DNA from: Pseudomonas sp. ADAK18
GTDB taxonomy: Bacteria; Pseudomonadota; Gammaproteobacteria; Pseudomonadales; Pseudomonadaceae
Reading direction: 5' to 3'
DNA length: 64,000 nucleotides
Assembly: GCF_012935695.1 (NCBI RefSeq)
Contig: NZ_CP052859.1
Location: forward strand, 4,815,001-4,879,000
Shown here: positions 33,534-60,475 of the stretch, piece after piece
Layout: each line of letters begins with the position of its first letter
Numbering within the stretch: the stretch's first letter is position 1
Made by a program: the position numbers and the translations under genes
Notes under the pieces: model-generated
Told to the model about the DNA's origin: nothing
Databases searched by the model: none
What the model saw: the letters and a program-made list of their open reading frames with translations, nothing else

Positions 33534-33547
33534 CAAGAAATTTCTCG
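33534..33547. promoter_or_regulatory. RcsB-like box upstream of pilin 1 (CAAGAAATTTCTCG)
   Basis: A 14-bp imperfect dyad that fits YARGAA-NN-TTCYTR with one half degraded. It lies 116 bp before the pilin 1 start. Weak alone; supported by better copies elsewhere in the window. Confidence 0.4.
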
Positions 33548-33715
33548 GATGTGTTTAATGGCATGTATTCATGTCAAAAAAGTTGCCCGCTTGCGGCGCA
33601 ACCGGAGCGTGGGCCGGGGGATATTTGCTCGTCCAGCGCGTGCCGAACCATTGAAAACCATCAGTAGAAATGAGATACGAAGCTGGACCATTACTATCGA
33701 GGGGGGAGAGCAGCG

Positions 33716-34450
33716 ATGAATATGGATTACGCAAAGTACATTGAGGACGTAACGGAAGACATCAAAACCTGTATCGGTGATATGGCGTGTCAGCCCATCC
33801 TGTTCATGGGCTCCGGTTTCACCAAGCGCTATCTCAACGCCCGAACTGGGAGGAGCTGCTCAAGGACCTCGCCGCGCGATGCCCGGAGATCCGTCAGTTC
33901 GCCTACTACAAGCAGCGCTACCCAGACTTCGTTGATATGGCACCCAGTTCTCCGAAAAATACAATGACTGGGCTTGGGGAGCCGGCCAAGATCAGTTCCC
34001 CATAGAGCTCTACGACGAAGCTAGCTCGCCCCAGATTTACATCAAGCACACAGTTGCTGAGATCTTCAAAGAGTTGCTTGCGTCGGGTGAGCATAAGCTG
34101 GATGAAGAGATCGAGCGGCCACACTCGGTGATTACCACCAACTACGATCAGTTGCTCGAAGAATGTTTCCCCGAGTACGAGACGATCGTTGGACAGAAGA
34201 TTCTTTATGCCGACCATTCGAGCATTGGTGAGATCTTCAAGATCCATGGCTGCGCATCCCATCCCGAGAGCATCGTACTGACGCGTGCAGACTACGATGA
34301 GTTCGTGAAGCGCAAGAAGTACCTTTCCGCGAAGCTGCTGGCCTTCTTTGCCGAGCATCCACTTCACTTGTGTTCATCGGGGACCGGCCGAAGATCCAAA
34401 CATCAAGGCGATCCTCGCGGATATAGACGAAATTCTTTCGGAGGATGGTA
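33716..34450 (+). pseudogene. SIR2-domain (defence-type) protein gene, multiple frameshifts
   Basis: An ATG at 33716 with GGGGGGAG upstream opens MNMDYAKYIEDVTEDI...QPILFMGSGFTKRYLNA, the NAD-loop of bacterial SIR2 proteins (GSG). The sequence then moves to another frame (PNWEELLKDLAARCPEI), then another (NDWAWGAGQDQFPIELYDE...PHSVITTNYDQLLEE, IFKIHGCASHPESIVLTRADYDEF), and once more near 34375 (PNIKAILADIDEILSEDGKL). TTNYD and KIHG are hallmark SIR2 motifs. At least three indels, and the C-terminal half is absent. Proteins of this type deplete NAD in anti-phage defence (family knowledge); this one is dead. Confidence 0.82.
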
Positions 34451-34937
34451 AGCTGATCCCAAACAGCGTCACCAGTCCCGCCAGATCACTGCCCAACACG
34501 GCCGGCAGTTCTGCGCCATTGCGTACTCGGCAAGTGCCGTGATGGTCAGCGCGCGATGGCGTCAGATACATTGTCGGTAGTGGCTGACCCAAGCCGATGA
34601 GGCTATGAGCGTTTTTACACACTCTGGGCCAATTGCGGCCGTACGATCCAGGTTGGTTTCTGGCGAACAGCAATAGCCAAGCACGTTGAAATGTTCTTTG
34701 CTTGGCGCGCAAGATTATAGCGCTCAATGATTGTCCGAGAAATACGCGTATAGACAATTTGCATGGCAATTCGATATCGTCTCTTCTTCAAAAAATGCAC
34801 CCACAAATTCTGTAACCTAAATTAAGTTTATTGGTCAGTTCGGACAGTAGAAGGTGCACCTCTCATGGTCCTCAAGCATCTCTAATGACTTCAACCCTAT
34901 TACGGCCCCAGGAATGCCGGAAAAATATGGATATAAC
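34451..34937. other. Junction of two decayed genes, no gene supported
   Basis: About 490 bp. On the minus strand the segment 34500-34640 has a GC content and base pattern unlike the AT-rich DNA on its right, perhaps the tail of another mobile element (motif GTGTGTAAAAACGCTCA read on minus). Not identified. Confidence 0.35.
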
Positions 34938-35778
34938 ATGAAAATATTGCTTGTAGCTGGAAATGGCTTGTCTATTTCAATGTTGAATCAGATACACAAA
35001 TGCGTCGATCTTTCTAATCTTTTCTCGACGGGATGTGATGCGACATGACCCGCAACGGGAAAACCTGGACTCCTTAGCTATGAACATTGCCCAAGTTTGT
35101 GGGAACTCGGCGCTCGACAAACAACTTCGCCACAAAACTCATATGATGTAATAGAGCAGGCTATTACCGCCGTAAATGCATGCTGCCTAGCCGACCCAGC
35201 TTCACTCGAAGATGGAATATGTATACGTGCATACAAAGAGCTTGTAGCTTAACTGAGGTATCTGTTTGTGCATTATGATACAATTTTGCTATCAGAAAAC
35301 TTCTTTTCCAGTGATGATGCCAGCCAATTGATTGGCTTATTGAGGCCGTAAAAGATGACAATATAAGCAGTGTTTATATAATAAGTTTTAATTGCGGCGC
35401 TTTTCTTGAGAGGACTCTTCAAGCAAAGGGTATCGCGTTTTCAACACCCCTACTTGATGAAGATCAAAACTCGAAAATTACGATCCACAAGCCCCGTGGC
35501 TCGATTACTTTTTGCGGGAAATCAGCCATTGATAACACTGCATTCTCGGTTAATTATGAAGCTAGTTTTACTGAAGGGGGCATAGACGAGCTTGCGGTGA
35601 AATATGAGGATTTGGACAAGCACTACCCATTAGTCAGGATATTGCCTCCAGCGGGAGAGTCAGACAGATTTGGGATAAAGCTATTGAGGCAGCAAAGAAA
35701 TTAGAAGAGAATGACATTGTTATCATTTATGGTCTAAGCTATTGGCATGTGGGCCGTAAGGAGATAGACATGCTTCTA

Positions 35779-36931: not shown

Positions 36932-36985
36932 TAGATGTGCCAGATGTAATTGGGGGGTATGAGTACCGTATGAGCTGAAAAATAT

Positions 36986-37141
36986 TTAATGCTCGGATTT
37001 GTCTGCGCTACCAGGATTTTTTTGGGCCAGCGAATGATTGAGGTCGTGCAACGACTGTTCCACCCGGGCCAGCGCGGTCTCGGTACCGGCGCGCATGTCC
37101 ATGGGCTCAGTGGCGAGCCAGATGGCGTCGATGCGGATCAT
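36986..37141 (-). pseudogene. IS66 TnpB fragment fused to unrelated 3' sequence
   Basis: Starts MIRIDAIWLATEPMDMRAGTETALARV, the first ~28 residues of an IS66 TnpB, then changes abruptly into EQSLHDLNHSLAQKNPGSADKSEH and a stop, which is not TnpB sequence. The break marks a recombination joint beside the IS630 insertion area. Confidence 0.75.
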
Positions 37142-37461: not shown

Positions 37462-37499
37462 GAAATACCCGCTTAAAAGGCTAGAACTGGTGCCCACTT

Positions 37500-38358: not shown

Positions 38359-38413
38359 GAAAGTAAGCTCCGAACTCATTGGTTTATGCAATACACAAAG
38401 ATTATCATCGTCT

Positions 38414-38436: not shown

Positions 38437-38457
38437 TTTCTCATCATTGATTTCTAA

Positions 38458-39390: not shown

Positions 39391-39442
39391 GATGACGTGA
39401 CACTCAACGAGTCCGATAGTGTTCGGATACGCCTTTGAGTTG

Positions 39443-39456
39443 TAGGAATTTTCCTA
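39443..39456. promoter_or_regulatory. RcsB-like box upstream of EAL gene 1 (TAGGAATTTTCCTA)
   Basis: Arms TAGGAA/TTCCTA perfect (extended G/C at each side), 84 bp before the start of EAL gene 1. It is close to the enterobacterial RcsAB box TAAGAATATTCCTA. A half site (AATTCTTCTA) follows 15 bp later. Confidence 0.6.
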
Positions 39457-39539
39457 CAGATCGGCAGGACAATTCTTCTACAGCCGTAGGTTGTTGTTCG
39501 GCACAGTTCCGCTCATCAGCAATGGTCGGGTTGAAATAG

Positions 39540-40730
39540 ATGATTGAGGGGTGTGTTCTCGTTGTAGAAAGTCATGCTTTACAGCGCAGTGTGTTGGTTA
39601 ACTGGTTGTTGAATCTGCAGGTCGCGTGCGTTTTGTCGGCAGGGAACGCTTTACAAGCAGTCGATCATATTTGCCGCCAGGAAATAATCGATATCATTTT
39701 CTTTGACCTGAGTGACGGATCAATCAACAATCTTGATTTTCTTAGTGTCGGCAGCAAATTGGGCAACGTACGAACTTTGGTCGTGCATGGAGAGTTGCCA
39801 TTGGCGTTGCTACGTTCGGTTTCCAGATTGAGTTCGTTGTCTTCTATCCGTTTACTGGGTGTACTGGACAAACCTCTGCAACCGCAAGCCTTGCAAAAAA
39901 TATTGTCTGCTTTCAAAACACACCACAGTGCTTCACTCAGAGAACCGGCAGCAAAACTCGAGTTGACTCCTCATGCTGAGGTGCTGCAAGGGTTGATTGC
40001 TGGAGAGTTTCAGGCTTGGTATCAACCCAAGTTCAACCTGCATGATGGCCGACTGTTTGGTGCCGAGGTGTTGGTGCGCTGGGAGCACCCCAAGAAAGGG
40101 CTTTTGATGCCCTCGAATCTACTGGCGACGGTAGTGGCTTATGACTTAATCGATGATATGTTCAAACAGCTTTTGGAACAAGGGCTCGAATTCATGAGCC
40201 GTCAGCGGGAGCAAGGGCTTGATCTGGGGCTCGCATTCAACCTGACGGCCTCTCAGTTGGTACGCGATGACTTGGTCGAGCACATTGTCCAGCGCTTGGA
40301 TCAATATAAAATGCCCGGCTCAGCGCTCATGTTCGAAGTCACCGAAAACGGCCTGCTGGATTTGCCTCCGTCTGCTGTAGAAAATTTGCTGCATCTGCAT
40401 CAAGCCGGCTGTGGTTTGTCGATTGATGACTTCGGTATTGGTTTTTCCTCGTTGAGGCAGTTGGCACATCTGCCCTTCAACCAACTCAAGCTCGACACTG
40501 TATTTGTCCGAGATGTTGACGACCTGGGTAACCGGGCGGTCATTTCAAGCAGTGTAGCGTTAGCCAAGGCATTACGGATGGACCTAGTGGTCGTGGGCAT
40601 TGAAAATGCACACGAGCTTCACACCCTCATCAGCCTGGGCTGCTCTTTTGGCCAGGGCTTTCATCTTGCACTCCCCATGACGGGCGCTGATTTTTCCTTG
40701 TGGCTGAAACTTCATGCTCCGGCCGTGTAA
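39540..40730 (+). CDS. REC-EAL protein 1 (RocR/PvrR-like), predicted catalytically impaired
   Basis: 396 residues. The N-terminal receiver is partly degenerate: VVES replaces the acidic pair, while Asp56 (FFDLS) and Lys111 (LDKPL) remain. The EAL domain (~145-390) keeps Glu176 (AEVLVRW), Asn234, Glu269, Asp296-Asp297 (DDFGIGFSSL), Lys317 (LKLD) and Gln372 (GQGF). The Glu of the A-E-G-V-E-T motif, the general base equivalent to RocR Glu352, is Val352 (VVVGIEN). It may bind c-di-GMP without hydrolysing it, or work by protein contact, as EAL regulators of the Roc system do with kinases. First gene of EAL-LuxR-kinase cluster 1. Confidence 0.88.
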   Translation: MIEGCVLVVESHALQRSVLVNWLLNLQVACVLSAGNALQAVDHICRQEIIDIIFFDLSDGSINNLDFLSVGSKLGNVRTLVVHGELPLALLRSVSRLSSLSSIRLLGVLDKPLQPQALQKILSAFKTHHSASLREPAAKLELTPHAEVLQGLIAGEFQAWYQPKFNLHDGRLFGAEVLVRWEHPKKGLLMPSNLLATVVAYDLIDDMFKQLLEQGLEFMSRQREQGLDLGLAFNLTASQLVRDDLVEHIVQRLDQYKMPGSALMFEVTENGLLDLPPSAVENLLHLHQAGCGLSIDDFGIGFSSLRQLAHLPFNQLKLDTVFVRDVDDLGNRAVISSSVALAKALRMDLVVVGIENAHELHTLISLGCSFGQGFHLALPMTGADFSLWLKLHAPAV

Positions 40731-40844: not shown

Positions 40845-41471
40845 ATGTTCAAAGCATTAGTCGTTGACGACCATCCGTTTATTCGTGCTTCCGTTAAGGC
40901 GTTGCTTGGGGCAGAGCAGTTTGAAATAGTGGCGGAGGCGGGTAATGGTGTAGACGCTTTGCACTTGGCGCGTGAGTATGTCCCCGACCTGATTTTACTC
41001 GATATATCCATGCCGCTTCTCGACGGCATAGACGTTATCAGCCGCATCGTTGCCTCGGGTTTGCCCTGTAAAATCCTGGTGCTGACCTCCCTGGATGCGT
41101 CTTTTTACGCTTGGCGTTGCATGAACGCCGGAGCGTCTGGTTATGTCTCCAAGACCGGAAATCTTGCAGAGCTGACCCGGGCGATCAAGGCGATTATGGA
41201 TGGCTACAGCTATTTTCCAGTGCTCGCCAACAGTTCGGTACGCACCGTTGATTACCAAGCCAGCGAGCATGACTTGATTCGAAACCTGTCCAACCGTGAA
41301 CTGACCATTTTGCAGCAACTGGCTCGGGGTTTCAGTAACAAGGAAATTGGTGACGCCATGCTACTGAGCAACAAGACCATCAGTACTTATAAAACCCGAC
41401 TGATTGAAAAGCTCAACGTCAAGTCAGTGGTCTATCTCGCTGATTTTGCCAAGCGCAACAATCTTCTCTAA
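40845..41471 (+). CDS. LuxR/NarL-type response regulator 1 (RocA/RcsB/BvgA-like)
   Basis: 208 residues. Receiver: DD at 8-9, phospho-acceptor Asp53 (LILLDISMP), Thr81 and Lys103 (GYVSKTG). C-terminal HTH: SNRELTILQQLARGFSNKEIGDAMLLSNKTISTYKTRLIEKLNVKSVVYLADFAKRNNLL, of the BvgA/RcsB group. It likely binds the TAGGAA-NN-TTCCTA or CAAGAA-NN-TTCTTG dyads of this locus and activates fimbrial genes. Kinase 1 begins 2 bp after its stop, so the pair is coupled. Confidence 0.93.
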   Translation: MFKALVVDDHPFIRASVKALLGAEQFEIVAEAGNGVDALHLAREYVPDLILLDISMPLLDGIDVISRIVASGLPCKILVLTSLDASFYAWRCMNAGASGYVSKTGNLAELTRAIKAIMDGYSYFPVLANSSVRTVDYQASEHDLIRNLSNRELTILQQLARGFSNKEIGDAMLLSNKTISTYKTRLIEKLNVKSVVYLADFAKRNNLL

Positions 41472-41473
41472 AC

Positions 41474-44400
41474 ATGAAGTGGCCATTCGGGATTCTGATC
41501 GTTTTACTGTGTATCAACCCCTTTGTTCAAGCGGCGAACTTTCCTGACGATTTCGAACCACTGAAGTTGTTGGGACGTTCCCAGCTCACAGGTGTGACCC
41601 TGAAGTTGTCAGAAATTGACAGGGGCTTGTTGCGCGAAAAAAAAATAATGCGAGTCGGGGTTGTCACCACCGACGCCTCACCTTTGGGGTTGAGTACGAG
41701 TACTTACGATTACGAGGGGATTGCAGCCGACTACTTGGAGCTGATTGCCGGCTTGTTGAATGTCGAAATTCAGATTCAACGCTATCAAGCCCGTATACAA
41801 GCGGTAGAAGCGCTCAAAAGAGGCGAGGTGGACCTGTTGGGGATCGCTTCCGCCGTTGATGCAACGGATCCTGAACTGGTGGTTTCGAGGTCCTATCTCG
41901 ATGACCAACCTGTGTTAGTCAGCCGCAGGGACAGCAATGCGATCCTGCCGAAGGACCTTGCTGGGCAACAATTGGCAATGGCTGAATATGACCCGTCTGT
42001 CTCCTTGGTCAGGGCGCATTACCCGTTGGCAAAGCTGCAGTTGTATCCGACAGATCTGGATGCCATCAGCGCTGTAGTTTTTGACCAAGCTGATGTTTAC
42101 CTCGGTGGAGCGACGACTGCTAGCTACCTGATCAATAGAAACTTTCTGTCCGATGTTTATCTGACGGACTTCGCGAGCCTGGACGTGACCAGTATCGGTT
42201 TTGCGCTGCGGGTTGAAGATCAGCAGTTGTTGGGTATTGTCAACCGGGCGTTGATAACCATCCCAGCAGAAGAAAGCACAATAATCAAACGGCGCTGGGG
42301 GGTAGAAACGATCACTGTAAGTGACCATGATAAGATTGAACTCAGCCCGAATGAGCAACGCTGGCTGGCGAACCACCCCCACTTGAGGGTAGCGGTACTG
42401 GAGAACAGTCCACCGTTGGCCTTTTTCGATCAGCAGGGAAGTTTTCGCGGTATCAGCGCTGATCTGTTGGCCGTGCTTCGTCGTCGTACAGGTCTTACCT
42501 TAGAGGTGACACGTGCCTACTCGCTGGATGGCCTTGTAGAGTTGGTCAAAAATGGCAAGGCTGACTTCATTGCGGCGTTCAATCCAAACGCTGCTAACAG
42601 CGACCTGCGGTTTACCCGATCCTATTTGACCACACCCTATGTACTGAGCGTTCGTACTGGCGATGAGAAAGTCGGCAGTTTGGATGATCTGGCGGGGAAG
42701 CGTCTGGCAATCAGAAAAGGTGGTGATGTACGGGGTTATATTGGTCGGTATTATCCGCAGATAATTTTGGTTGATACAGCAGATGCTACTGATGCCTTAT
42801 CGATGGTCGCGGAGGGTAAAGCCGATGCCGCCGTCACTACTTGGGTCAACGCCCGCTATCTGATTGCTACTCGGTACCAATCCCGTGTTCGGGTGAGTCG
42901 AACCGTTGGTTTGCAGCCCGCGCAAATAGCACTTGCCACTGATCGCGGGTCGTTAGAGCTGTATTCAATTCTGGACAAGGTGATGATGAGTCTCTCCCCG
43001 CAGGAGTTGGATGAGCTTACCAGTCGTTGGCGTAATGAAGTCGTGGTGGACAATAAACGCACACAGGCCAATCAATCGGAAATCATACGAGGTTCGGCTA
43101 TCGCCGCGATTTTGTTACTGGCGGCGTTCGGATGGATTATCTACTTGCAGCGCCTGATTCAGAGACGTGAGGTGGCCGAGCAGGCGTTGAATGAACAAAT
43201 GGAGTTCATGCGGGTACTGATCGATGGGTTACCTCACCCTATCTACGTCCGAGACCGCAAGACACGGATGCTACTGTGCAATCAACGTTTTCTGGAGGCG
43301 GTTGGAAGTACTCGCGAGAAGATTATTGGCACACGGTTATCCGAAACCGGGATCATCGATTCAAGCCTCGGGGCCGTGTTCGAACGGCAATACCTAGAGG
43401 TCATGGAAGGAGGTCAGGAATTGATTGCTGACTGCCAGCTGTCGTTTCCCAATGGCCAGGTTATTACGGCTTATCATTGGATACTGCCGTTTCGCGACAA
43501 CTCGGACGAGGTCAAGGGCATTATTGCCGGGTGGATTGATATCAGTGAGCGCGAGCGCTTGCTCGAGCAGCTTACAGACGCCAAGAAGGACGCGGATAAG
43601 GCCAATCGAGCGAAAACCACTTTCCTGGCAACCATGAGTCATGAAATACGTACCCCGATGAACGCTGTGGTGGGGATGCTGGAGCTGGCCATGAAAAAGG
43701 CTGACCAAGGCATTCTCGACCGTTTTGCCATTGACGTGGCATCGGGCGCTGCGCGAGGACTTCTGGAACTGATTGGCGACATCCTGGATGTGGTACGCAT
43801 CGAGTCTGAGCGCTTGACGCTGGTACCGCAACGGGCGGCGCTCAAAGAACTTGTGGTGTCGGTGGTACGGGTATTCGAAGGGTTAGCCCGGCAGAAACAG
43901 TTGAGTCTTGTGTTGTCATTCGATGAAAAAGCCAACAAAGACGTTCTGATCGATCCGATACGGTTCAAGCAGGTACTGTCCAACCTGATCGGTAACGCCA
44001 TCAAGTTCACGAGTGTCGGGCAGGTGCAGGTCTGTGTAAAGGTCACGCATTCGGCCAACAACCAAAGCATGGGTGTTCAGGTGTTGGTGCGCGATACCGG
44101 GATAGGTATTTCCGTGGACGATCAGCAGCGGCTATTCGTGCCATTCAACCAGGCCAGCCATTCGAGTGCGGGAGGTTCAGGCTTGGGGCTGGCGATTAGC
44201 CGCAAACTGTGTTCGATGATGCAGGGTGAGTTGAACCTCGCCAGCGTGTTAGGGCAAGGCACACAGACCGAGGTGTTGCTGGAACTGGAGGTTCTTGCTC
44301 CATTGCCGCCCACCAGACCGGAGCCCGTGTTACCCGAAGTTGGCAAGGTATTGAAAGTGCTGGTGGTTGATGATTATCCAGCCAACCGTTTGCTGTTATC

Positions 44401-45094
44401 ACAGCAGTTGAGTTACCTGGGGCACACGGTCGATGACGAGCCGGACGGTGCCCATGGCTTGTGTGCCTGGCGCAATGGTCATTTCGATGTGGTGATTACC
44501 GACTGCAACATGCCGGTGATGACAGGCTACGAACTGGCCAGGGCGATCCGCGCTGAGGAGGCTGATTCGGGCGCGGCGCGTTGCTTGATCCTGGGGTTCA
44601 CCGCCAACGCGCAACCGGAGGAAAAGGATCGCTGCCTGGAAGCGGGCATGGATGATTGTCTATTCAAGCCCATCAGTATGAAGGACCTGACTGCGCGCTT
44701 GTCCGGTGTGGAGTTGGTGTTCGATGAAACAGGGGACGCTGATGGCTCAATACCACTGTCCGACGACATTGACCTCAGGAGCCTCGAACAACTGGCTCAT
44801 GGTGACCGAACGCTGGTTAACAGCTTGTTGCGGGATCTGGCCAGTAGCAACGAAGAGGATTTGTTACGGCTGCTCAAACTCTACAGTGATCACGACTTGA
44901 GCGGGCTGTCCGACCTGGGCCATCGGGTCAAGGGAGGAGCACGTATCATCAAGGCGCATCGCCTGATCCAGTGCTGCGAGCAATTGCAAACTGAATGTAA
45001 TGGCCATGACGCGGTGCGGCTGACCCAGGCGGTGGATGCTCTGCACGAGGCCATGGAGGCATTGGCGCAGCGTCTGGAGGCGTGTATTGACTAG
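41474..45094 (+). CDS. BvgS/RocS-type hybrid sensor histidine kinase 1
   Basis: 1206 residues: signal peptide (~1-20), two tandem SBP_bac_3 (Venus-flytrap) domains in the periplasm (~53-275 and ~297-525), one TM helix (~540-560), PAS (~575-695), HisKA with His723 (ATMSHEIRTPMNAV), HATPase (NLIGNAIKFT, DTGIGI, GSGLGLAIS), receiver with Asp1010 (VITDCNMP), and HPt with His1150 (GHRVKGGARII). All phosphorelay residues are present, so His-Asp-His then Asp53 of regulator 1 is the expected path. The periplasmic ligands are unknown. A family match to RocS1/PvrS of P. aeruginosa and BvgS of Bordetella. Confidence 0.95.
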   Translation: MKWPFGILIVLLCINPFVQAANFPDDFEPLKLLGRSQLTGVTLKLSEIDRGLLREKKIMRVGVVTTDASPLGLSTSTYDYEGIAADYLELIAGLLNVEIQIQRYQARIQAVEALKRGEVDLLGIASAVDATDPELVVSRSYLDDQPVLVSRRDSNAILPKDLAGQQLAMAEYDPSVSLVRAHYPLAKLQLYPTDLDAISAVVFDQADVYLGGATTASYLINRNFLSDVYLTDFASLDVTSIGFALRVEDQQLLGIVNRALITIPAEESTIIKRRWGVETITVSDHDKIELSPNEQRWLANHPHLRVAVLENSPPLAFFDQQGSFRGISADLLAVLRRRTGLTLEVTRAYSLDGLVELVKNGKADFIAAFNPNAANSDLRFTRSYLTTPYVLSVRTGDEKVGSLDDLAGKRLAIRKGGDVRGYIGRYYPQIILVDTADATDALSMVAEGKADAAVTTWVNARYLIATRYQSRVRVSRTVGLQPAQIALATDRGSLELYSILDKVMMSLSPQELDELTSRWRNEVVVDNKRTQANQSEIIRGSAIAAILLLAAFGWIIYLQRLIQRREVAEQALNEQMEFMRVLIDGLPHPIYVRDRKTRMLLCNQRFLEAVGSTREKIIGTRLSETGIIDSSLGAVFERQYLEVMEGGQELIADCQLSFPNGQVITAYHWILPFRDNSDEVKGIIAGWIDISERERLLEQLTDAKKDADKANRAKTTFLATMSHEIRTPMNAVVGMLELAMKKADQGILDRFAIDVASGAARGLLELIGDILDVVRIESERLTLVPQRAALKELVVSVVRVFEGLARQKQLSLVLSFDEKANKDVLIDPIRFKQVLSNLIGNAIKFTSVGQVQVCVKVTHSANNQSMGVQVLVRDTGIGISVDDQQRLFVPFNQASHSSAGGSGLGLAISRKLCSMMQGELNLASVLGQGTQTEVLLELEVLAPLPPTRPEPVLPEVGKVLKVLVVDDYPANRLLLSQQLSYLGHTVDDEPDGAHGLCAWRNGHFDVVITDCNMPVMTGYELARAIRAEEADSGAARCLILGFTANAQPEEKDRCLEAGMDDCLFKPISMKDLTARLSGVELVFDETGDADGSIPLSDDIDLRSLEQLAHGDRTLVNSLLRDLASSNEEDLLRLLKLYSDHDLSGLSDLGHRVKGGARIIKAHRLIQCCEQLQTECNGHDAVRLTQAVDALHEAMEALAQRLEACID

Positions 45095-45224: not shown

Positions 45225-46313
45225 TCACTGATAAACGATGTTCAGCGTGGCGGTTGCCCTGATCTCGCCACTGGTAAGTTCAGCGGGGTTGTAAGGGAAG
45301 TAGTAAGCGCCCATGCCAACTGAGAAATTGCTATTAACCACAGCACCTGCAGCGGCACTGAAAATGGAGGTGGCACTTCCGCGGTTTAAGGTGGAGGTGG
45401 AAAAGACAACCGGTGCGTTGGGAGTGTCGCGTTTGGCTACCTTTATACCGACGCCTTTCGCCGAGCCAGGCGTGCTGTCCATCAATACGCTATTGTCGGA
45501 TGGAAGCAGGTTATTGCTGGATAAAAACATGTCGATTGCGCGGTCGGTGCTGCCGTTAGCCAGCAGGTTGTTACAGCTGAAATTCAATGTAAATGGCGTA
45601 TAACCCGGTTGAGGGATTTTTGTCAGCTGCGCAACACCTATTTTAGGAAGATTCACCATCAACCCTGCGTTGTTGAAGTTGCAGGTAGCCATCTTAGGTG
45701 TATAAGTGATGATGAGATTTTGTGAGTACATATCTCGTTCATTTAGAGGCCAGCCCGTGAATCCCTTCAGAATCCACACGGCGACATTGTAAGCAAAAAC
45801 AGCTGGAGATGCTGCCCACTCCAACCAGCCCATTCCAGACGTATCTCTCACAATTATTAAGTTACTAAACTGCCCCGTATTACCGCTGACTTTAGCATCG
45901 TCAGGCCCGTTGCTCATCAGGGAGAAACGCATGGTGATTGGCGTGTTCAACTCTGAGGATGTATGTCCACCACTTGATAACAGTTTACCTTGTATCGGCC
46001 CTACAACCTCCACTCGTACCCAGTGTTTTCCATCTTCCAGTCCAACAGATATTACCTTGGAGGTATCTGACAGGGGAGAGAAGTAATCAAAATTGGCATC
46101 TGTCGAACAATTGAAGCCAAATGCCCCCAAGTCGCTGTTAATTGTTTGTGTCCAGACACGGCTTCTTTCGCTTAGTTTGTCTGAAAGGTCGATTGCCATA
46201 ACTGAACCATATTCGGTAGGTCCATTATAACAGGTTGCGTAACTGATCGTGCTGAACAACCCAGACACCAAAAACACAATAATAAATCTGTTCATGATAA
46301 TTAATTTTCTCAT
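45225..46313 (-). CDS. Fimbrial tip adhesin, operon 2
   Basis: 362 residues from the ATG at 46313, which follows the usher stop by 1 bp; ATGs at 46328 and 46295 are alternatives. A signal peptide ends STISYA, then CYNGPTEYGSV with a lectin-like N-terminal domain, and a pilin-type C-terminal domain from about residue 200 (ATCNFNNAGLMVNLPKIG, FTLNFSCNNLL) ending GEIRATATLNIVYQ. Usual layout of a two-domain tip adhesin. It has no close likeness to the operon 1 adhesin, so the two fimbriae probably recognise different targets. Confidence 0.83.
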   Translation of the reverse strand: MRKLIIMNRFIIVFLVSGLFSTISYATCYNGPTEYGSVMAIDLSDKLSERSRVWTQTINSDLGAFGFNCSTDANFDYFSPLSDTSKVISVGLEDGKHWVRVEVVGPIQGKLLSSGGHTSSELNTPITMRFSLMSNGPDDAKVSGNTGQFSNLIIVRDTSGMGWLEWAASPAVFAYNVAVWILKGFTGWPLNERDMYSQNLIITYTPKMATCNFNNAGLMVNLPKIGVAQLTKIPQPGYTPFTLNFSCNNLLANGSTDRAIDMFLSSNNLLPSDNSVLMDSTPGSAKGVGIKVAKRDTPNAPVVFSTSTLNRGSATSIFSAAAGAVVNSNFSVGMGAYYFPYNPAELTSGEIRATATLNIVYQ

Positions 46314-46314
46314 A

Positions 46315-48810: not shown

Positions 48811-48824
48811 TCTTGGGTTTTACC

Positions 48825-49520
48825 TTAGTGCGATACTACAGCTTTAGTTTTGTAAGCACCCAAATCATCGATATACATCATGGTGTAGGGTGCATTTTTA
48901 CTGACGGACTCTTTACTCTCGACGAATGTAGAGGAAAAAGGAGCGATCATGACTGAGTCAACGAGCAGATGTTTTTTGTCGTGTTGATCAATGTTAGCGA
49001 GTGTGAAGAAGTACGCGCTTTTATTGATCACGTTAAAACCTTTCGCGACCGCTTGCAGTTCGATTTTTTCGATGCTGCTGCTGGCCTTTTCCTTTAGCCC
49101 GCTCGGGCGATAGAACATTTTTATGCGAGACTTGATCGCCAGCTGCAGTGTGTTTGCTCCCTTTAAATTTTCAGGGGTTGGAGGGATGTCTAGCACATTT
49201 AAAAAGAAAACAGACTCCCGATCCGCAACCAGTGGAGCGCCGACTTTAGTAATTCTGAGTTGTTGACCGCTTTCTCCAGAAACTTTGACAACTGGCGGAG
49301 ATAGGAGGAACGGAACATTGGCTGTTTCCGGCGTGGAGTTGATGTCGCCATCATCTATCCATGCTTGAACCAAGGAGGAGTCACTTCCATTATTGATGAG
49401 TTGAACTATTACATCTTTGTTTGCTCCTGGATAAATAACACGAGTGCCATTGATGACAATGTTGGCCTGCGCAGACACGGAGCTGAGTAGTAATCCTGCT
49501 AAAACTAGTTTCTTTATCAT
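48825..49520 (-). CDS. Periplasmic fimbrial chaperone, operon 2
   Basis: 231 residues from the ATG at 49520, AGGA 8 bp upstream. A signal peptide ends SAQA, then INGTRVIYPGANKDVIVQLINNGSDSSLVQAWID, the signature SGESGQQLRITKVGAPLVADRESVFFLNVLDIPP, and IKMFYRPSGL. The Arg and Lys that anchor the subunit C-terminus are present. Fourteen bp before usher 2. The pilin-chaperone gap holds a strong hairpin. Confidence 0.93.
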   Translation of the reverse strand: MIKKLVLAGLLLSSVSAQANIVINGTRVIYPGANKDVIVQLINNGSDSSLVQAWIDDGDINSTPETANVPFLLSPPVVKVSGESGQQLRITKVGAPLVADRESVFFLNVLDIPPTPENLKGANTLQLAIKSRIKMFYRPSGLKEKASSSIEKIELQAVAKGFNVINKSAYFFTLANIDQHDKKHLLVDSVMIAPFSSTFVESKESVSKNAPYTMMYIDDLGAYKTKAVVSH

Positions 49521-49533
49521 GATATTTTCCTGA

Positions 49534-49558
49534 ACCAGGCCCATGGGATGGGCCTGGT
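49534..49558 (-). terminator. Intercistronic hairpin between pilin and chaperone, operon 2
   Basis: Perfect 11-bp stem ACCAGGCCCAT/ATGGGCCTGGT with loop GGG, 12 bp after the pilin stop. Same place as the hairpin in operon 1 though the sequence differs, so the structure seems selected. Likely attenuator or 3' mRNA protector for pilin. Confidence 0.7.
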
Positions 49559-49570
49559 ACACGGGCTGTA

Positions 49571-50149
49571 TTACAAGTAGGAAATGGTGTAGGTCAGATT
49601 GGAACTAAGGGCGCCAACTTTGGCGTCGGCGGCATTGGTTTTGTAGTAGTACGCATCAAGCACGAGTGTTTCAGGTGTTGTACCTGCTCCGCTGATGCCA
49701 GTGTCGAGCGGCACGTTCAATTGGATTGGCGCGATAGAGCCTGGCTTCGCCAGTGAGAAACCGACGTTTTTGGCAACATCAGCATCACTTTCGTTGACTG
49801 TGTTGTTCAGCAAAAACTTACCGTCTGTGGAAATGTTATCTGCGGACGAGAAATACATTTTCAATGGAGTGCCAGCAACTCCTGCGGCTGGGGTGCAGCC
49901 CGAGAAGGTCAAAGAAAACGATTTTTTGTTTTTGGTCAGCGGGCCAACGGCGTTACCGGCGTCAATCACGGAAATAGGAGACAGCGCAACGGTGAAATCT
50001 GCACTTTTACCGCCATTGATAGTGCAAGTAGTGTCGGTAATCGCGCCGCTGAAGGAAATAACACCGCCGGCAGCGTTATCATCGGCCATGACGTTTGCGG
50101 AAGCCAGGACAGAGGCCAGTGCTGCCAGAGAGAAAGCGTGCTTAATCAT
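49571..50149 (-). CDS. Major fimbrial subunit (pilin), operon 2
   Basis: 192 residues: a signal peptide ends NVMA, donor strand GGVISFSGAITDTTCTING with Cys, second Cys in LTFSGCTPAAG, and C-terminal ending LSSNLTYTISYL with the penultimate Tyr. Ordinary type of the FimA/CupA1 family. First gene of the second minus-strand operon; ahead of it are a weak dyad at 50224 and two strong ones at 50471 and 50529. Confidence 0.92.
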   Translation of the reverse strand: MIKHAFSLAALASVLASANVMADDNAAGGVISFSGAITDTTCTINGGKSADFTVALSPISVIDAGNAVGPLTKNKKSFSLTFSGCTPAAGVAGTPLKMYFSSADNISTDGKFLLNNTVNESDADVAKNVGFSLAKPGSIAPIQLNVPLDTGISGAGTTPETLVLDAYYYKTNAADAKVGALSSNLTYTISYL

Positions 50150-50223: not shown

Positions 50224-50237
50224 CAAGAATTTTTTTG
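50224..50237. promoter_or_regulatory. Weak RcsB-like box upstream of pilin 2 (CAAGAATTTTTTTG)
   Basis: CAAGAA half perfect, other half TTTTTG; 75 bp before the pilin 2 start. Could be chance in an AT-rich leader. Confidence 0.3.
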
Positions 50238-50470
50238 AGGTCAGTATCATGTTGCGCTTGCACAATGGGGCAAACATCAACGATAAATTCAGTCAGGTGC
50301 GACACTACATGTGCAGCACAGTCCTACAATATTGTCGATGTGGTCACCTCGTTTTTCATCCTGCGAAACCAATCAGTTTCTGCAGAGTAGAAAATTAGAA
50401 CTCGAAATGAGCTGGTCATAGTTTGTCTAGGTGCAAGGAAGGAGCCTGTAGGATCGATCTCTATGCCGTG

Positions 50471-50484
50471 TAGGAAATTTCCTA
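50471..50484. promoter_or_regulatory. RcsB-like box (TAGGAAATTTCCTA), perfect 14-bp palindrome
   Basis: Perfect palindrome in the divergent region between pilin 2 (50149) and EAL gene 2 (50774). A second near-identical copy lies 58 bp further, about five to six helical turns. Confidence 0.65.
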
Positions 50485-50528: not shown

Positions 50529-50542
50529 AAGGAAATTTCCTA
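50529..50542. promoter_or_regulatory. RcsB-like box (AAGGAAATTTCCTA)
   Basis: Differs from the copy at 50471 only in the first base. Lies 232 bp before EAL gene 2. Confidence 0.6.
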
Positions 50543-50773
50543 CGTGTTGGTGGGATTTTTCGAGGTTTTTGTGCGCTGAACAAAGGCGAATATATGGCAA
50601 TCCAGCTAAGTTATATCAATGCATCGTTTCGCAAACTTCAAGCTTGAAATATGGCGCTACTGATGTTGAGCGTAGTGTATGGATCATGTTTAGGATAAGG
50701 AGGTGCTTTAGAAAAGCATTTATGAAAAAGGAATATCGAGAACTGAAGTTATGCCGTATTCCGGAGAGTTATC

Positions 50774-52003
50774 ATGCTAGTGTTGCCCCTACGCGTTTTT
50801 GTCCTGAACGCGAATTTTTTTCAGCGAGCAACTACTGTCAATATGTTGCGGCACCTGGGGTGTGATGTCGTATTCAGTGCGTCGTCCGCCAGTCACGCGT
50901 GGCATGCTCTGTACAACGTCGGGCCGGTAGATATCGCTTTCTGCGACTTGCGTACGGAAGGGCTAGATAGCCTTGATTTTTTGCAACGTTCGGCGAAGAG
51001 CGGGCTGGTGCGATCGGTCATCATCAACAATTCGCTCGCTGAAGATGTACAGCGGGCAGCGAGACAACTGATGCCCCTGTTGGGGCTGAAGATGTTGGGT
51101 GAGATGGGTAATCCTCTACAGCTTGATACGCTGAACGGTCTTCTGATGAGTTGTTTGAACCAGTCTGCGGGCCCGGTGGATTCCACCGGTGTGAACGTAG
51201 TGGTCAGTGAGGAAGAGATCCGCTCGGCTATGGCGAGTGGCCAAATGGAGACCTACTTTCAGCCCAAGATCAATCTGGTGAACAACCAAGTCTCGGGTGT
51301 CGAAGCGCTTACTCGCTGGAACCACCCAAGAAAAGGGGTCGTTTCGCCTATAGTGTTTATGCCGACTATTGAGCGCTGTGGCTTGCTTAATCAGTTGTTT
51401 TTTGCACAGCTCGATCATGGGTTGCAATTGCAGCGCCGCTGTCTGACGCGTGGTCAAATTCTAAACGTTGCGTTCAACCTGCAACCTTCCCAGTTGTCCG
51501 ATGTGGCATTGGTTTCCAGGATTAAAGCAGCCTTGGCGAGTTTCAAATTACCGGCGGCCGGAGTGACCTTCGAGTTGACCGAAACCGGGTTGGTGGAAGC
51601 GTCGGCCGGGTGCATGGAAAACCTGGTGCGACTGCGCATGATGGGTTGTCGATTATCCATTGATGATTTTGGTTCCGGTTTTTCATCGTTGCAACGCTTG
51701 TGTCAGTTGCCCTTCAACGAGATCAAGCTGGACGGTGAATTCGTTCAGGCAATGGACGATGGGCCGCGTCCCCGGGCCGTTATCAGCAGCACCATTGCTT
51801 TGGGTGAGTCCCTGGGTATGACGGTAGTGGCTGAGGGTATCGAAACACAGAAGCAACACAACCAATTAGTGGCTCTGGGCTGCGTGCATGGGCAGGGCTA
51901 CTTCTTTGCCAAACCGATGACGAAGCAAGACCTGGATTGTTGGCTTCAATCAGGGGGCCCACACGCTGGGGAGAGTGGGCAGTATTCGACCATTTCTCCA
52001 TGA
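50774..52003 (+). CDS. REC-EAL protein 2 (RocR/PvrR-like), EAL intact, receiver degenerate
   Basis: 409 residues from the ATG at 50774, GGAG 7 bp upstream. The receiver keeps Asp58 (AFCDLR) but lacks the acidic pair (FVLNANFF) and the conserved Lys (GEMGNPLQ instead of K-P). The EAL domain has all catalytic residues: Glu177 (VEALTRW), Asn235, Glu270, Asp297-Asp298 (DDFGSGFSSL), Lys318 (IKLD), Glu354 and Glu357 (VVAEGIET), Gln in GQGYFFAKP. Predicted active c-di-GMP phosphodiesterase not controlled by ordinary phosphorylation. Followed 76 bp later by a stand-alone receiver. Confidence 0.92.
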   Translation: MLVLPLRVFVLNANFFQRATTVNMLRHLGCDVVFSASSASHAWHALYNVGPVDIAFCDLRTEGLDSLDFLQRSAKSGLVRSVIINNSLAEDVQRAARQLMPLLGLKMLGEMGNPLQLDTLNGLLMSCLNQSAGPVDSTGVNVVVSEEEIRSAMASGQMETYFQPKINLVNNQVSGVEALTRWNHPRKGVVSPIVFMPTIERCGLLNQLFFAQLDHGLQLQRRCLTRGQILNVAFNLQPSQLSDVALVSRIKAALASFKLPAAGVTFELTETGLVEASAGCMENLVRLRMMGCRLSIDDFGSGFSSLQRLCQLPFNEIKLDGEFVQAMDDGPRPRAVISSTIALGESLGMTVVAEGIETQKQHNQLVALGCVHGQGYFFAKPMTKQDLDCWLQSGGPHAGESGQYSTISP

Positions 52004-55791: not shown

Positions 55792-55795
55792 CTAA

Positions 55796-56227: not shown

Positions 56228-58744
56228 TCACCATTGGTAACCAGCACCTACTGATACAGCCGTATCCCCACGCGAGTTTGTTGATCCTTGCAATTTACTA
56301 ACCCACTTCCCATTTGACGATATATGGGAAATGCCGATGGCCAGAGATGACTGTCCTCGATAGTTTGCTGCACCTCCTGAGATCATACTCGCACCTGGGG
56401 CGTAGGGTTGCGGCAGGGCTGCCATTGCCATGGCCCCCGCGATACCTGCACTGAGATCGCTATCCAACGCCTTAATATCTTTTCGCAGGCTATTAATTGC
56501 CTTGTCAGTGTATGCGTTTGAGTTATTTGTTATTTCAGAGATGCTATTATTTAACTGAGACAAGTTAACGGCATCTGTACCTGAAGTGCCCGACGCGACA
56601 TTAGTGACTTGACGTTCACTACCTGCCGCCCCAACAGAAACACTATTTTCACGATCAGCAACAGAGCCGCTACCTAAAGCAACAGAGTTCTCGGCACTGG
56701 CAGAGGATCCATCACCCAGAGCAACGGAGTGATTAGCCGCAGCATTAGAGTTGGTTCCTATAGCAACACTATTATTACCTGACGCCTTTGATCCGGCTCC
56801 ACCTGCAACAGAATCCTTACCTGTCACTACAGGCTTGGGATTGCCAGATGCGTTATTGACTTGGAACATTCCATCTTTGCCATTTTGAATACTGCTAACA
56901 TCTCCCTCAATATTTGTTACTCTATTATCAATATTATTGATGCTGTTCGTAATATTCGTTACACCATCTGTTATATTACTAATCGAGTCATCTGTATATT
57001 TTTTCGCTTCTGCAACCGCTCCGTCTAGTTGCCCAAGATTAACCACGTCATTGGCTTCCTTGCCGTCAGCGACATTACTGATTGTTCGATTTTCACCTGT
57101 GTCAGCGTTACCGACAGAAACAGTGCCGGTCGTAGTATTGTCTTCCCCAGAGTATTTTCCTTTATACGTTTCAGCCCCTCGTCCGCCGTCACTCGAATTG
57201 GCTCCTATCGCGACACTGCCGTCGGCAGACGCGTTAGCATTTTCGCCCATGGCTATAGAGGCTGCTCCGGACGCCTTTGCTTCATTGCCGGACGCTATTG
57301 AACCGGTACCTGAGGCGATAGACTTAGGACCCATTGCAACGGCATCAGTACCACTTGCAATTGCACCGGTTTTAGTAGAGTTCGATTGGAAAAATTTAAT
57401 TCCGGCACCATTGAAGTTATTTTCAATATTGGTCACGCGATCACCAATATTGTTAACCTGACCGACTAATCCAAATAACTGTGACCCATTAACTGCGTCG
57501 TTAGACGTGGAACTAATAGTCCCGTTCGCCACATCAGTGATTTTGTTGGGTCCTTCTCCCTTATGTTTAGCACTGAAGACTTCGCGAGTTTGATCCCACT
57601 GCAATGAGTCTTCTGCCATCAACGCGACACCTTTTAGCTGTGCAATATTTACAGCATCCGTATCCTGAGTACCCGCGGCCACATTGGTGATTTGTCGGAG
57701 CATACCAGTCTTGGAGTTCCCCACGCTAACTGCACCAAGAGTTCCTGTAAAATCAAAAATTGAAGACCCTGCGACTGCAGAGATACCGGTTTTTGGGTCA
57801 TAGCCGCTTATTCCTCCATCGCGATCGGAAGTAGAGCCGCTGCCTAATGCTACGCTACCTATTGCATTAGCAGCTGATCCACCGCCAATTGCTGTACTAT
57901 TTTTATTACTTGCTAAAGAACCTTCCCCGACAGCAATACCTCGATATCCTAGGGACTGAGAGTTAGCACCGACAGCAATACTGAATGTACCAGAGGAAAC
58001 AGATCTACTGCCATTTGCGATACTGTAAGAACCGGAAGCGTTAGTCTGAGTGCCGATAGCAGTGCTTGAGACCCCAGATGCACTCGCATGTGATCCTATA
58101 GCATTACTCTGCTCTCCGGCAGATATTGCATCTTCCCCCATTGCAAGGCTAGAACGTCCTTCAGATACTGCACCATATCCAAATGCGGAACTACCTTCCC
58201 CTCTGGCTTGAGCCAATACGCCAACAGCCGAGCTACTATACCCGGAGGCATTCGCTCCGTGGCCAATCGCATTACTAAAATCTCCCGAAGCATTAGTATT
58301 CATACCTAAGGCCATAGAATACTTTCCTATTGCCGTTGCTGACTCGCCAAAAGCGATAGCCCTTTCCCCTGATGCAATTGAAGAGTAACCTAATGCCATA
58401 CTTCTCAATCCGGATGCATTGCCTTCTGTCAATACTCGAGGATAAATACTCAAAAAAGACATTGTTTCGGGGTTCTTTGTATCTACTTCTGAATCCTTTG
58501 ATTGCGATGTTTTCAATATATTCATTTCGGGGAGTCGGCCTTCCCCAGCTTTCGCTATGCTGGCTAACCCCGGAGTATGATCCACTACAGTTTCTAAATC
58601 AGAACGATGGATTTTATAATTAGAAGTCTCTACTTCAGGCGGAGATTCAATTATCTCATCTGCCTTAGCGTAGCTCGACAGCGTCGTGAACAATATTAGC
58701 AAGAAGGTATGTCTTGTCTTTTTTAAAGGCTTATAAATTTTCAT
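56228..58744 (-). CDS. Trimeric autotransporter adhesin (YadA family)
   Basis: 838 residues. A signal peptide (ends SYAKA) precedes a head made of many 14-residue YadA-like repeats of the form S-x-A-x-G-x-x-A-x-A (residues ~105-340 and ~480-560, ~655-720). Three HIM/neck motifs follow (ITNVAAGTQDTDAVNIAQL, ISNVADGKEANDVVNLGQL, VTNVASGTSGTDAVNLSQL). Between them run coiled coils (INNIDNRVTNIEGDVSSIQNG), and the C-terminal anchor is SAGIAGAMAMAALPQPYAPGASM ending AVSVGAGYQW. It would form a trimeric surface fibre. GC is low and it is flanked by IS5 copies, which suggests acquisition. Two RcsB-like dyads lie upstream. Confidence 0.95.
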   Translation of the reverse strand: MKIYKPLKKTRHTFLLILFTTLSSYAKADEIIESPPEVETSNYKIHRSDLETVVDHTPGLASIAKAGEGRLPEMNILKTSQSKDSEVDTKNPETMSFLSIYPRVLTEGNASGLRSMALGYSSIASGERAIAFGESATAIGKYSMALGMNTNASGDFSNAIGHGANASGYSSSAVGVLAQARGEGSSAFGYGAVSEGRSSLAMGEDAISAGEQSNAIGSHASASGVSSTAIGTQTNASGSYSIANGSRSVSSGTFSIAVGANSQSLGYRGIAVGEGSLASNKNSTAIGGGSAANAIGSVALGSGSTSDRDGGISGYDPKTGISAVAGSSIFDFTGTLGAVSVGNSKTGMLRQITNVAAGTQDTDAVNIAQLKGVALMAEDSLQWDQTREVFSAKHKGEGPNKITDVANGTISSTSNDAVNGSQLFGLVGQVNNIGDRVTNIENNFNGAGIKFFQSNSTKTGAIASGTDAVAMGPKSIASGTGSIASGNEAKASGAASIAMGENANASADGSVAIGANSSDGGRGAETYKGKYSGEDNTTTGTVSVGNADTGENRTISNVADGKEANDVVNLGQLDGAVAEAKKYTDDSISNITDGVTNITNSINNIDNRVTNIEGDVSSIQNGKDGMFQVNNASGNPKPVVTGKDSVAGGAGSKASGNNSVAIGTNSNAAANHSVALGDGSSASAENSVALGSGSVADRENSVSVGAAGSERQVTNVASGTSGTDAVNLSQLNNSISEITNNSNAYTDKAINSLRKDIKALDSDLSAGIAGAMAMAALPQPYAPGASMISGGAANYRGQSSLAIGISHISSNGKWVSKLQGSTNSRGDTAVSVGAGYQW

Positions 58745-58837
58745 GTTTAAATTACTCTTAAAGTTTGCTTTTTGGATGCCCTTTAAACTTTAAGTTTTTT
58801 TTCTTGTAAAAAAAACAAGGATGTTCTTTGATACAGC

Positions 58838-58851
58838 CAAGAATTTTCTTG
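58838..58851. promoter_or_regulatory. RcsB-like box upstream of the autotransporter (CAAGAATTTTCTTG)
   Basis: Perfect 6-bp arms CAAGAA/TTCTTG, 94 bp before the autotransporter start. Confidence 0.55.
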
Positions 58852-58865
58852 CTTTCACCTGGCGC

Positions 58866-58879
58866 TAGAAATATTCTGT
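58866..58879. promoter_or_regulatory. RcsB-like box upstream of the autotransporter (TAGAAATATTCTGT)
   Basis: Imperfect dyad with the ATATTC centre of the enterobacterial box, 15 bp from the dyad at 58838. Confidence 0.4.
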
Positions 58880-59260
58880 AACGATTGGCAGACTTTAGAG
58901 TGGTTGATCGTAATCAAGATATATGCAGGCGACGGAAAGTCATAAGTTTTAGCGGCCGTATAATAACTGTCGCTATACGGTAGCCCAAAAGGGAATAGAT
59001 CGCCGGCTATAAGGTGCCGCAGATTACTTAAAAATCTTGTATGGTTTGCAATATTGTTGTTTAGAATGTTTGTGTTGCTTGATAGTGGTCTTAAGTGAAA
59101 TATTTTTTCGATCTTTCATGATGATTTGCAAGTAAATGCATTGAATCCTTCTAGTAAAAGTCAAGCGGCAGCCAGTTTTTCTTATTGTCAGTAGGGCTAA
59201 AGTCAGCGAGGACCTGATTCCGAGAGATTTCTTAAGCTAACCAAGCTCTTTCTTGGTTAG

Positions 59261-60413
59261 GGAAACTCCGATCAACATCGCGATGTGCGTGTTGTTAGTC
59301 GAAACGAAAACGAATTTCAGCGCTGCTTAGCGCAGAAAGGCCCGTCCGCACTGCTTCGTCGGGCTTTTTCAGCCCAGCTCCCCGCGTTACACGCGTAACT
59401 CGCCCGTACCCATCAGCTGTTTTCGAGCCATCCAGAGGTTCGACAGAGCAAACAGCGTGGTCAGTTGAGCAGTGTTTTTCATCAGCCCACGAAAGCGCAC
59501 TTTCACATAACCAAACTGGCGCTTGATCACCCGAAACGGAAGTTCGACCTTGGCCCGCGTCAGGGCTTTGCAGTACTCGATTTTGCGCTTGGCCTTGTAG
59601 AGCTGGCTGCGTTTATTCAGTCGTGAATAAGTGCTACGTCGCGCCGCGATCTGCCAGATCACTTCACGACTTTCGTGCTCATCACGCTTCTCGACGCCGG
59701 TGTAACCGGCGTCCGCATAGACCGCGTTTTCCTCGCCATGTAGCAGCTCAGCAACTTGGGTTACGTCGGCCACATTCGCAGCTGTGCCGTGGACATGGTG
59801 AACCAGGCCTGACTCCACATCGGAGCCGATGTGGGCCTTCATTCCAAAGTAGTATTGGTTACCTTTTTTGGTCTGATGCATCTCAGGATCACGCTTGCCT
59901 TCCTCGTTCTTGGTTGAGCTGGGAGCATCGATGGTGCCCTGGCGCAGGGACAGACCTTTTTCCTGCAAATAACCGTTGATGACAGCCAGGATCGCAGGCG
60001 CCAATTTATGCTTCTCCAGCAAGTGCCGGAAGTTCATGATCGTGGTGTCTTCAGGGATCGGCGCACTTAATGTACGACGGGCGAACTGACGCATGGGAGT
60101 GATTTCATAAAGCGCTTCTTCCATGGCCGAGTCGCTCAGCGAGAACCAGTTTTGCAGCAGATGGATGCGCAACATGGTCTCCAGCGGATACGGTTTACGG
60201 CCACCACCAGCCTTCGGGTAATACGGTTCGATCAACCCCAACACACCACTCCAGGGCACCACCTGATCCATTTCGGCAAGGAAGCGTTCACGGCGGGTTG
60301 GCTTGCGCTTGCCGGCGTATTCAAAGTCGGAAAAGCTCATCTGGCTCATGCGTGGCTCGGGCCAGGTGGTGAAGGTGTATTTCAGCACATCTGAGGACTT
60401 GTTCGGAGTTTCC
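59261..60413 (-). mobile_element. IS5-family element copy 2 (1153 bp), TTAG target duplication
   Basis: Ends GGAAACTCCGATCAAC (left) and GGAAACTCCGAACAAG (right, read inward) form inverted repeats; TTAG at 59257-59260 and 60414-60417 is the 4-bp target duplication. A normal intact element. It is inserted beside the dyad CAAGCTCTTTCTTG between the autotransporter and regulator 2. Confidence 0.9.
59387..60349 (-). CDS. IS5-family transposase, copy 2
   Basis: 320 residues from the ATG at 60349, matching copy 1 except for one residue (LMGTGELRV). The longer open frame upstream to 60514 leaves the IS and is not coding. All DDE residues are present. Confidence 0.92.
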   Translation of the reverse strand: MSQMSFSDFEYAGKRKPTRRERFLAEMDQVVPWSGVLGLIEPYYPKAGGGRKPYPLETMLRIHLLQNWFSLSDSAMEEALYEITPMRQFARRTLSAPIPEDTTIMNFRHLLEKHKLAPAILAVINGYLQEKGLSLRQGTIDAPSSTKNEEGKRDPEMHQTKKGNQYYFGMKAHIGSDVESGLVHHVHGTAANVADVTQVAELLHGEENAVYADAGYTGVEKRDEHESREVIWQIAARRSTYSRLNKRSQLYKAKRKIEYCKALTRAKVELPFRVIKRQFGYVKVRFRGLMKNTAQLTTLFALSNLWMARKQLMGTGELRV

Positions 60414-60461
60414 TTAGGGTCTTTGATTTTCGTCTTCAAAGGGAGTAAAGCCGCCAACAAA

Positions 60462-60475
60462 CAAGAACTTTCTTG
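60462..60475. promoter_or_regulatory. RcsB-like box upstream of regulator 2 (CAAGAACTTTCTTG)
   Basis: Perfect CAAGAA/TTCTTG arms, 236 bp before the regulator 2 ATG. With the dyad at 59242-59255 (CAAGCTCTTTCTTG) across the IS5, the site is doubled; before the IS5 insertion they were about 65 bp apart. Confidence 0.5.

Follow-up and report, generated by a model that had tools for sequence, protein, structure and literature searches.

The palindromes of an adhesion locus in Pseudomonas sp. ADAK18 are probably conserved operators, mostly arranged as gene-facing pairs with a 22-bp spacing and, to judge from related loci, likely recognised by Roc/BvgA-like regulators of two types. The locus lies in a window of 64,000 nucleotides (contig NZ_CP052859.1), in which we studied the span 33534-60475 (~27 kb) together with the genes on either side. 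It encodes two chaperone-usher fimbriae (fimbria 1 and fimbria 2, with pilins 1 and 2), two EAL proteins (EAL1 and EAL2), a trimeric autotransporter, two response regulators (RR1 and RR2) and two kinases (HK1 and HK2). An initial annotation had described the palindromes as RcsB-box-like sites marking a single regulon. Two regulons are indicated instead, since both the spelling of the site and the recognition helix of the regulator segregate by unit in relatives.

Matches to the dyad pattern, YARGAANNTTCYTR, come in the two spellings that the annotation had described. Exact matches number five in the window (15404, 39443, 50471, 58838 and 60462), against 0.04 expected from shuffles. Four of these lie in the span: TAGGAATTTTCCTA before EAL1 (39443..39456), in the TAGGAA class; TAGGAAATTTCCTA in the gap between fimbria 2 and EAL2 (50471..50484); and, in the CAAGAA class, CAAGAATTTTCTTG before the autotransporter (58838..58851) and CAAGAACTTTCTTG before RR2 (60462..60475). 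With one mismatch allowed there are eight window matches against 1.43 expected, the additions being CAAGAAATTTCTCG before pilin 1 (33534..33547; CAAGAA class), AAGGAAATTTCCTA facing EAL2 (50529..50542) and CAAGAATTTTTTTG before pilin 2 (50224..50237), a doubtful site that is CAAGAA-like yet stands at fimbria 2. Thus seven of the nine sites first listed hold, four exactly and three with one mismatch, and two (58866 and 59242) fail.

A feature absent from the annotation is a weaker dyad 22 bp nearer the gene. To quantify it, we oriented offsets toward the gene and scored 192 of them as matches out of 12. For six window sites, +22 was the best offset, with a mean of 8.33/12 (background 4.06, standard deviation 0.86) and single values of 7, 10, 7, 8, 10 and 8; an offset of -22 was near background. 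The site at 50471 was left out of this test because its target gene is ambiguous: its partner position scores 8 toward pilin 2 and 5 toward EAL2. Both offset scoring and a scan with the paired pattern recovered the partners CAGGACAATTCTTC, closer to EAL1 (39465..39478; 10/12), and CAAGGATGTTCTTT, closer to the autotransporter (58816..58829; 10/12), and offset scoring gave CGAGGCTGATCTTG, closer to RR2 (60484..60497; 8/12). In the gap between fimbria 2 and EAL2, the dyad at 50471 has its partner TAGGATCGATCTCT on the pilin 2 side (50449..50462; 8/12) and the one at 50529 has TGGGATTTTTCGAG on the EAL2 side (50551..50564; 8/12). The partner positions of 33534 and 50224 reach only 7/12 each. At nine RR2-unit sites of relatives, picked by hand and with the partners of some already seen beforehand, +22 was again best (8.22, background 3.96, standard deviation 0.77), although one site scored only 4. 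For EAL genes of relatives (15 sites), the leading offsets were +21 and +22, apart from self-overlap at -1.

The strong dyad with its weak partner is specific enough that, with up to 3 mismatches in 24 positions, the paired pattern matches the whole genome only twice, before EAL1 and before the autotransporter, both in the adhesion locus; the reversed-pattern control matches nowhere. Across the genus, 121 of 298 genomes contain a match and 23, counted by eye, a control match. Of 30 such loci examined, 6 adjoin homologues of window proteins and 10 lie within a stop-to-stop frame of at least 150 codons. Within the genus the paired pattern is enriched, but beyond this genome its matches are not confined to Roc genes.

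Conservation was examined upstream of homologous genes, and the dyads are kept there in related strains; the close relatives that carry a name are all Pseudomonas. Of 149 genus genomes, 25, our own included, encode EAL1 homologues (E 1e-60); 39 matches lie outside our genome, and the upstream regions of 29 of these were examined. A dyad of at least 11/12 stands 51-150 bp before the protein match in 15 of the 29. A de novo word search over 4096 half-sites at nine spacers ranked TAGGAA-NN-TTCCTA first, which with up to two mismatches is present in 16 of the 29 regions (mean 0.36); the 16 are not independent counts because the loci are related. Across 16 larger stretches from ten genomes, EAL1, EAL2 and usher operons again have dyads of at least 11/12 upstream, except in one stretch (L102), which has none. 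The closest relative (G036) matches both primary dyads and both partners of the gap between pilin 2 and EAL2, with 50529 as an exact copy, even though much of the surrounding sequence is different. The dyad before RR2 aligns with one of 10 or 11/12 in all five relatives that carry a close RR2 homologue, and CAAGA-type dyads precede pilin 1 in all four genomes having that gene (two are identical, and one has a partner of only 4). A word search upstream of 29 more distant RR2 homologues (44-54% identity) found TAGGAA in 11, with unrelated words equally high, and neither confirms nor refutes the pattern.

Relatives largely bear out the proposal in the annotation that one class belongs to each regulator. 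Among 15 loci found with RR2 homologues, five are at 63-69% identity and the other ten at 25-37%. In four of those five (the exception being L108), RR2-HK2 adjoins homologues of fimbria 1; RR2, HK2 and fimbria 1, which here lie ~27 kb apart, therefore look like one unit. We then counted half-sites by their outer bases, T.G as in TAGGAA or C.A as in CAAGAA, taking for each gene the best dyad within 300 bp and dropping rows that scored below 10. Of the 21 rows for RR1-unit genes, 14 were usable, and their 28 half-sites comprise 25 T.G, 0 C.A and 3 mixed; three pilin 2 rows are among the seven dropped. The 11 rows for RR2-unit genes contain 9 distinct dyads, whose 18 half-sites comprise 14 C.A, 3 T.G and 1 mixed. 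The count omits the EAL genes of RR2-bearing loci, and identical dyads were removed in the RR2 group only. Its Fisher p value of 1.3e-8 is inflated because the half-sites and the genomes are related. In one locus (L110) both spellings occur, and each stands upstream of the regulator that it belongs to. Upstream of a pilin-like frame, P. protegens 14B2, a strain with an RR2 homologue, has CAAGAAAATTCTTG, whose partner scores 9.

The recognition helices split in step with the spelling. By analogy with NarL-family structures, these helix positions would contact bases. The helix reads STYK(T/A)RL in all 12 RR1-unit regulators, namely RR1 and 11 homologues in the RR1 clade (at least 57% identity) that stand beside EAL1 or EAL2 homologues (L088-L102 and L110). 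In all eight RR2-type proteins it reads SGHK followed by IN, VN or VS. A locus found by the paired pattern alone (L194) encodes an RR2 homologue (63%) with the helix SGHKIN and has a CAAGAA pair, CAAGAAGTTTCTTG-N8-CAAGAAGCATCCCG. Neither helix type is present in two RcsB-like rows (28%, L125) or in two distant regulators of our own genome (L054 and L055).

Several observations weigh against two dedicated regulators with paired operators. A clear class exception is L107, which has TAGGAAAATTCCCA before RR2. Three RocA-like regulators of our own genome (L104, L105 and L106) share the STYKxRL helix with RR1, which may therefore share the TAGGAA sites with them. The site at 50224 has no counterpart in G036. 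Homologues of pilin 2 have no dyad of at least 10/12 within 300 bp in any of three rows (two from one locus), and the link to fimbria 2 therefore rests on the gap sites more than 320 bp away. A dyad near the gene is also lacking at six near-identical loci with EAL homologues (L030, L031, L032, L035, L036 and L038). Beside the autotransporter site, a promoter scan of 58600-60740 gave 1 match against 2.3 expected. Finally, RocA1, RocA2 and RocA3 of P. aeruginosa are described in passages of PMC12051241 as having highly similar motifs and shared in vitro targets (roc1, cupB, cupC and lepBA), with the caution that the motifs may hide differences between the regulators.

The RocA motifs and the class breaks at L107 and 50224 fit one regulon in which both regulators read both spellings and the classes are drift around a single consensus. 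We consider this an outside chance, because the spelling follows the unit in relatives, the helices divide with it, and L110 keeps each spelling before its own regulator.

Three known systems come closest to this one. As in the Roc system of P. aeruginosa, a RocR-like EAL protein, a RocA-like regulator and a RocS-like kinase adjoin chaperone-usher fimbriae: EAL1 is RocR-like, the adjacent RR1 is RocA-like, and HK1 is an unorthodox kinase. Control of the fimbriae by such a regulator, as in Roc, is predicted here from operators and gene neighbourhood. Unlike in Roc, there are two operator spellings and two helix types here, and RR2 and HK2 make up a probable second unit together with fimbria 1. 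A RocA motif from DNA affinity purification sequencing is already in print (supplementary Figure S2A of PMC12051241, as cited in its text), and such sequencing data are deposited as GSE179001; the main text of PMC8041468 mentions neither RocA1 nor RocA2.

An aeruginosa-group genome (G275), whose RocR is 97% identical to the solved one, offers a direct comparison. The regulator beside its rocR is 49% identical to RR1 and has the same helix, STYKTRL. The gap between its rocA1 and rocR contains TAGGAAAATTCCCA, of the TAGGAA type, and its homologue of fimbria 1 has TATGAATTTTCCTA upstream, also of the TAGGAA type, with a partner of 8. No dyad of at least 11 precedes the cupB-like operon; the EAL gene beside it has TAGAAATTTTCCTA, and a third fimbria has TAAGACGATTCTTA, partnerless, before its pilin. 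From gene order we take these fimbria loci and the EAL gene to be cupC, cupB, roc3 and cupA. The genome holds three exact dyads (control 0). One is at a Wzz-like gene and one precedes an RcsB-like regulator, both genes being named by eye; the third stands ~200 bp upstream of a YadA-type autotransporter (L151 1501), as in the window.

The BvgA operators of Bordetella are alike in their inverted TTTCCTA-type half-sites (heptads in passages of PMC4314077) and in their 22-bp dimer spacing. According to passages of PMC7250471, BvgA binds one face of the DNA as head-to-head dimers spaced 22 bp apart, the strong inverted heptad at Pfha lies furthest upstream, and sites in this regulator family are hard to predict. 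The same array feature, a strong inverted dyad with a further site 22 bp toward the gene, is present here, weakly at 33534 and 50224. A BvgA-type array would in addition have the site closest to the promoter directly next to the -35 element; the promoter scan of 58600-60740 yielded no match above chance. The differences are another genus, other target genes and a second, CAAGAA, spelling, in sites known here from sequence.

The same comparison bears on the RcsB label. The sites do resemble RcsAB boxes, including that of cupD1 in PA14, in being 14-bp dyads with GAA/TTC cores; the cupD1 promoter requires GAA in an RcsAB-box-like site (passages of PMC3842833), and RcsB-like proteins are present in relatives (two in L125). 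It is nevertheless improbable that a true RcsB binds them, in the way known from enterobacteria or the PA14 cupD island. RR2 scores 69.9 bits against the NCBIfam RcsB equivalog, whose cut-off is 235, and RcsB is absent from the best 25 of 93 families matched by RR1. For both regulators the closest solved structure is EvgA rather than RcsB, and EAL1 and HK1 are RocR- and RocS-like. The sites adjoin Roc-like genes in relatives and, unlike RcsAB boxes, stand in tandem 22-bp pairs of BvgA geometry. We therefore call them Roc/BvgA-type operator arrays, not RcsAB boxes.

Over the whole genome (6,471,780 bases, one contig), the exact dyad occurs 9 times against 3 for the reversed-pattern control, and 103 times against 70 with one mismatch. 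The span contains 4 of the 9 exact copies (binomial p 3.7e-8) and 7 of the 103 (p 3.0e-7), so the observation survives the background scan that the annotation had put forward as a way to refute it: the dyads are real and rare, and their density in the locus exceeds the genome background. Its statement that no further copies were met elsewhere missed the exact copy at 15404. Besides that copy, exact dyads outside the locus number four. One lies upstream of another RocA-like regulator (L001; 47% identical to RR1), with a kinase at 44% identity to HK1 next in line. Two are inside open frames, one of them for a ribosomal protein, and the last is intergenic, close to a permease-like gene; the names of these genes were given by eye. 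None of these five off-locus copies has a 22-bp partner of at least 8/12, save that 15404 has one of 9 at -21. Chance palindromes in AT-rich intergenic DNA could account for the weak 58866 and perhaps for 50224, since at three mismatches the window count (165 against 148 expected) equals chance, but shuffles, reversed-pattern controls and conservation make this untenable for the exact and one-mismatch set and a negligible prospect overall.

With two regulator types, RR1 is predicted to read the TAGGAA pairs before EAL1 and in the gap between fimbria 2 and EAL2, and RR2 the CAAGAA pairs upstream of its own gene, of fimbria 1 and of the trimeric autotransporter. Each kinase, HK1 or HK2, would pass phosphate to its own regulator by a phosphorelay. 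A head-to-head dimer of the regulator would occupy the strong dyad, as reported for BvgA, and this first dimer may help a second on to the weak dyad on the same DNA face, again as for BvgA. Bound regulator would turn the adhesin genes on and would also act back on the EAL or regulator gene of its own unit, and the outer operator bases (T.G or C.A) with the differing helices would keep the circuits apart.

We lean modestly toward a more general form of this model, in which a two-letter operator code insulates paralogous Roc-type phosphorelays: the helix would have changed from STYKxRL to SGHK along with the operator from T.G to C.A, the core GAA-NN-TTC and the 22-bp pairing being kept. Each cell would have two attachment programs, and the same operators would reach autotransporters and BapA-type adhesins in other Pseudomonas. 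The odds of this form are slightly lowered because three more regulators of our own genome share the helix type of RR1. If it is true, one program comprises fimbria 2 and the EAL proteins and the other fimbria 1 and the trimeric autotransporter, with little cross-talk. A helix-operator match, if it holds, would explain in a directly testable way how duplicated phosphorelays are kept from cross-talk, and would predict which adhesins and cyclic diguanosine monophosphate (c-di-GMP) enzymes belong to which relay. In the literature searched, mostly without subscription journals, we recognised neither such a rule nor the literal consensus strings.

Two listed sites were rejected as dyads. The one at 58866 has three mismatches, the level at which the window count equals chance. 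The one at 59242 has two mismatches and is better read as part of a hairpin with 9-bp arms (59237-59260; CTAACCAAG-ctcttt-CTTGGTTAG) at the left edge of an insertion sequence; together with 59221, which also has two mismatches and lies 21 bp away, it may form an array. The insertion sequence is the second of two IS5-family copies (54740-55794 and 59361-60416; 99.7% identical over 1056 bases). It sits between the autotransporter and RR2, with TTAG at both presumed ends (by eye). The dyad at 60462 is not part of it, since the copies align to 60416 and the dyad begins 46 bases beyond.

Further copies were noted in passing. The exact dyad at 15404-15417, CAAGAATCTTCCTG, lies between repressor-like and integrase-like frames (named by eye), remote from the adhesion genes. 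A third Roc-like locus of this genome (L104 4237-8578; genome 1268000-1282000) has CAGGAATTTTCCTA directly upstream of its regulator. In P. wayambapalatensis, perfect copies of TAGGAAATTTCCTA stand before a C39-type ABC exporter gene (L158 5042) and before a BapA-type adhesin of 1863 residues (L158 16746), neither with a 22-bp partner of at least 8, and, partnerless, before a lipoprotein-like frame ~0.9 kb upstream of pilin 1 (L171 4234).

The genes of the locus were assigned by domain, profile and structure searches. Fimbria 1 (28431..33418) and fimbria 2 (45225..50149), both on the minus strand, each comprise tip, usher, chaperone and pilin, the tip by position and the others by Pfam. Pfam also identifies the YadA-type trimeric autotransporter adhesin (56228..58744, minus strand). 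The remaining genes lie on the plus strand. RR1 (40845..41471; RocA/EvgA-like, helix STYKTRL; from domains and structure search) and RR2 (60711..61337; EvgA/FimZ-like, helix SGHKINL; from structure search and family profiles) each consist of a receiver and a LuxR-type helix-turn-helix. HK1 (41474..45094), a hybrid kinase resembling RocS and EvgS, carries two SBP_bac_3 domains along with PAS, HisKA, HATPase, receiver and Hpt domains (Pfam), the plan described for RocS1 in passages of PMC12051241. HK2 (61349..64000), by sequence comparison similar to HK1, has 1067 residues in all and extends beyond the window end. EAL1 (39540..40730) is a RocR-like receiver-EAL protein by structure alignment, matching RocR 3sy8 over residues 6-385 (E 5.9e-74); Pfam detects its EAL domain only. 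Profile searches identify EAL2 (50774..52003) as receiver-EAL-like, and both proteins (212.9 bits for EAL1, 224.6 for EAL2) score below the 580-bit cut-off of the NCBIfam PvrR equivalog. EAL1 has V at RocR's E352, where the G036 orthologue retains E; in most other EAL1-type copies the second E of EGxE is gone instead, and EAL2-type copies keep both. From these residues, EAL1 may be a poor phosphodiesterase. A small receiver-like protein (52080-52505) follows EAL2 and recurs next to EAL2 homologues in several relatives.

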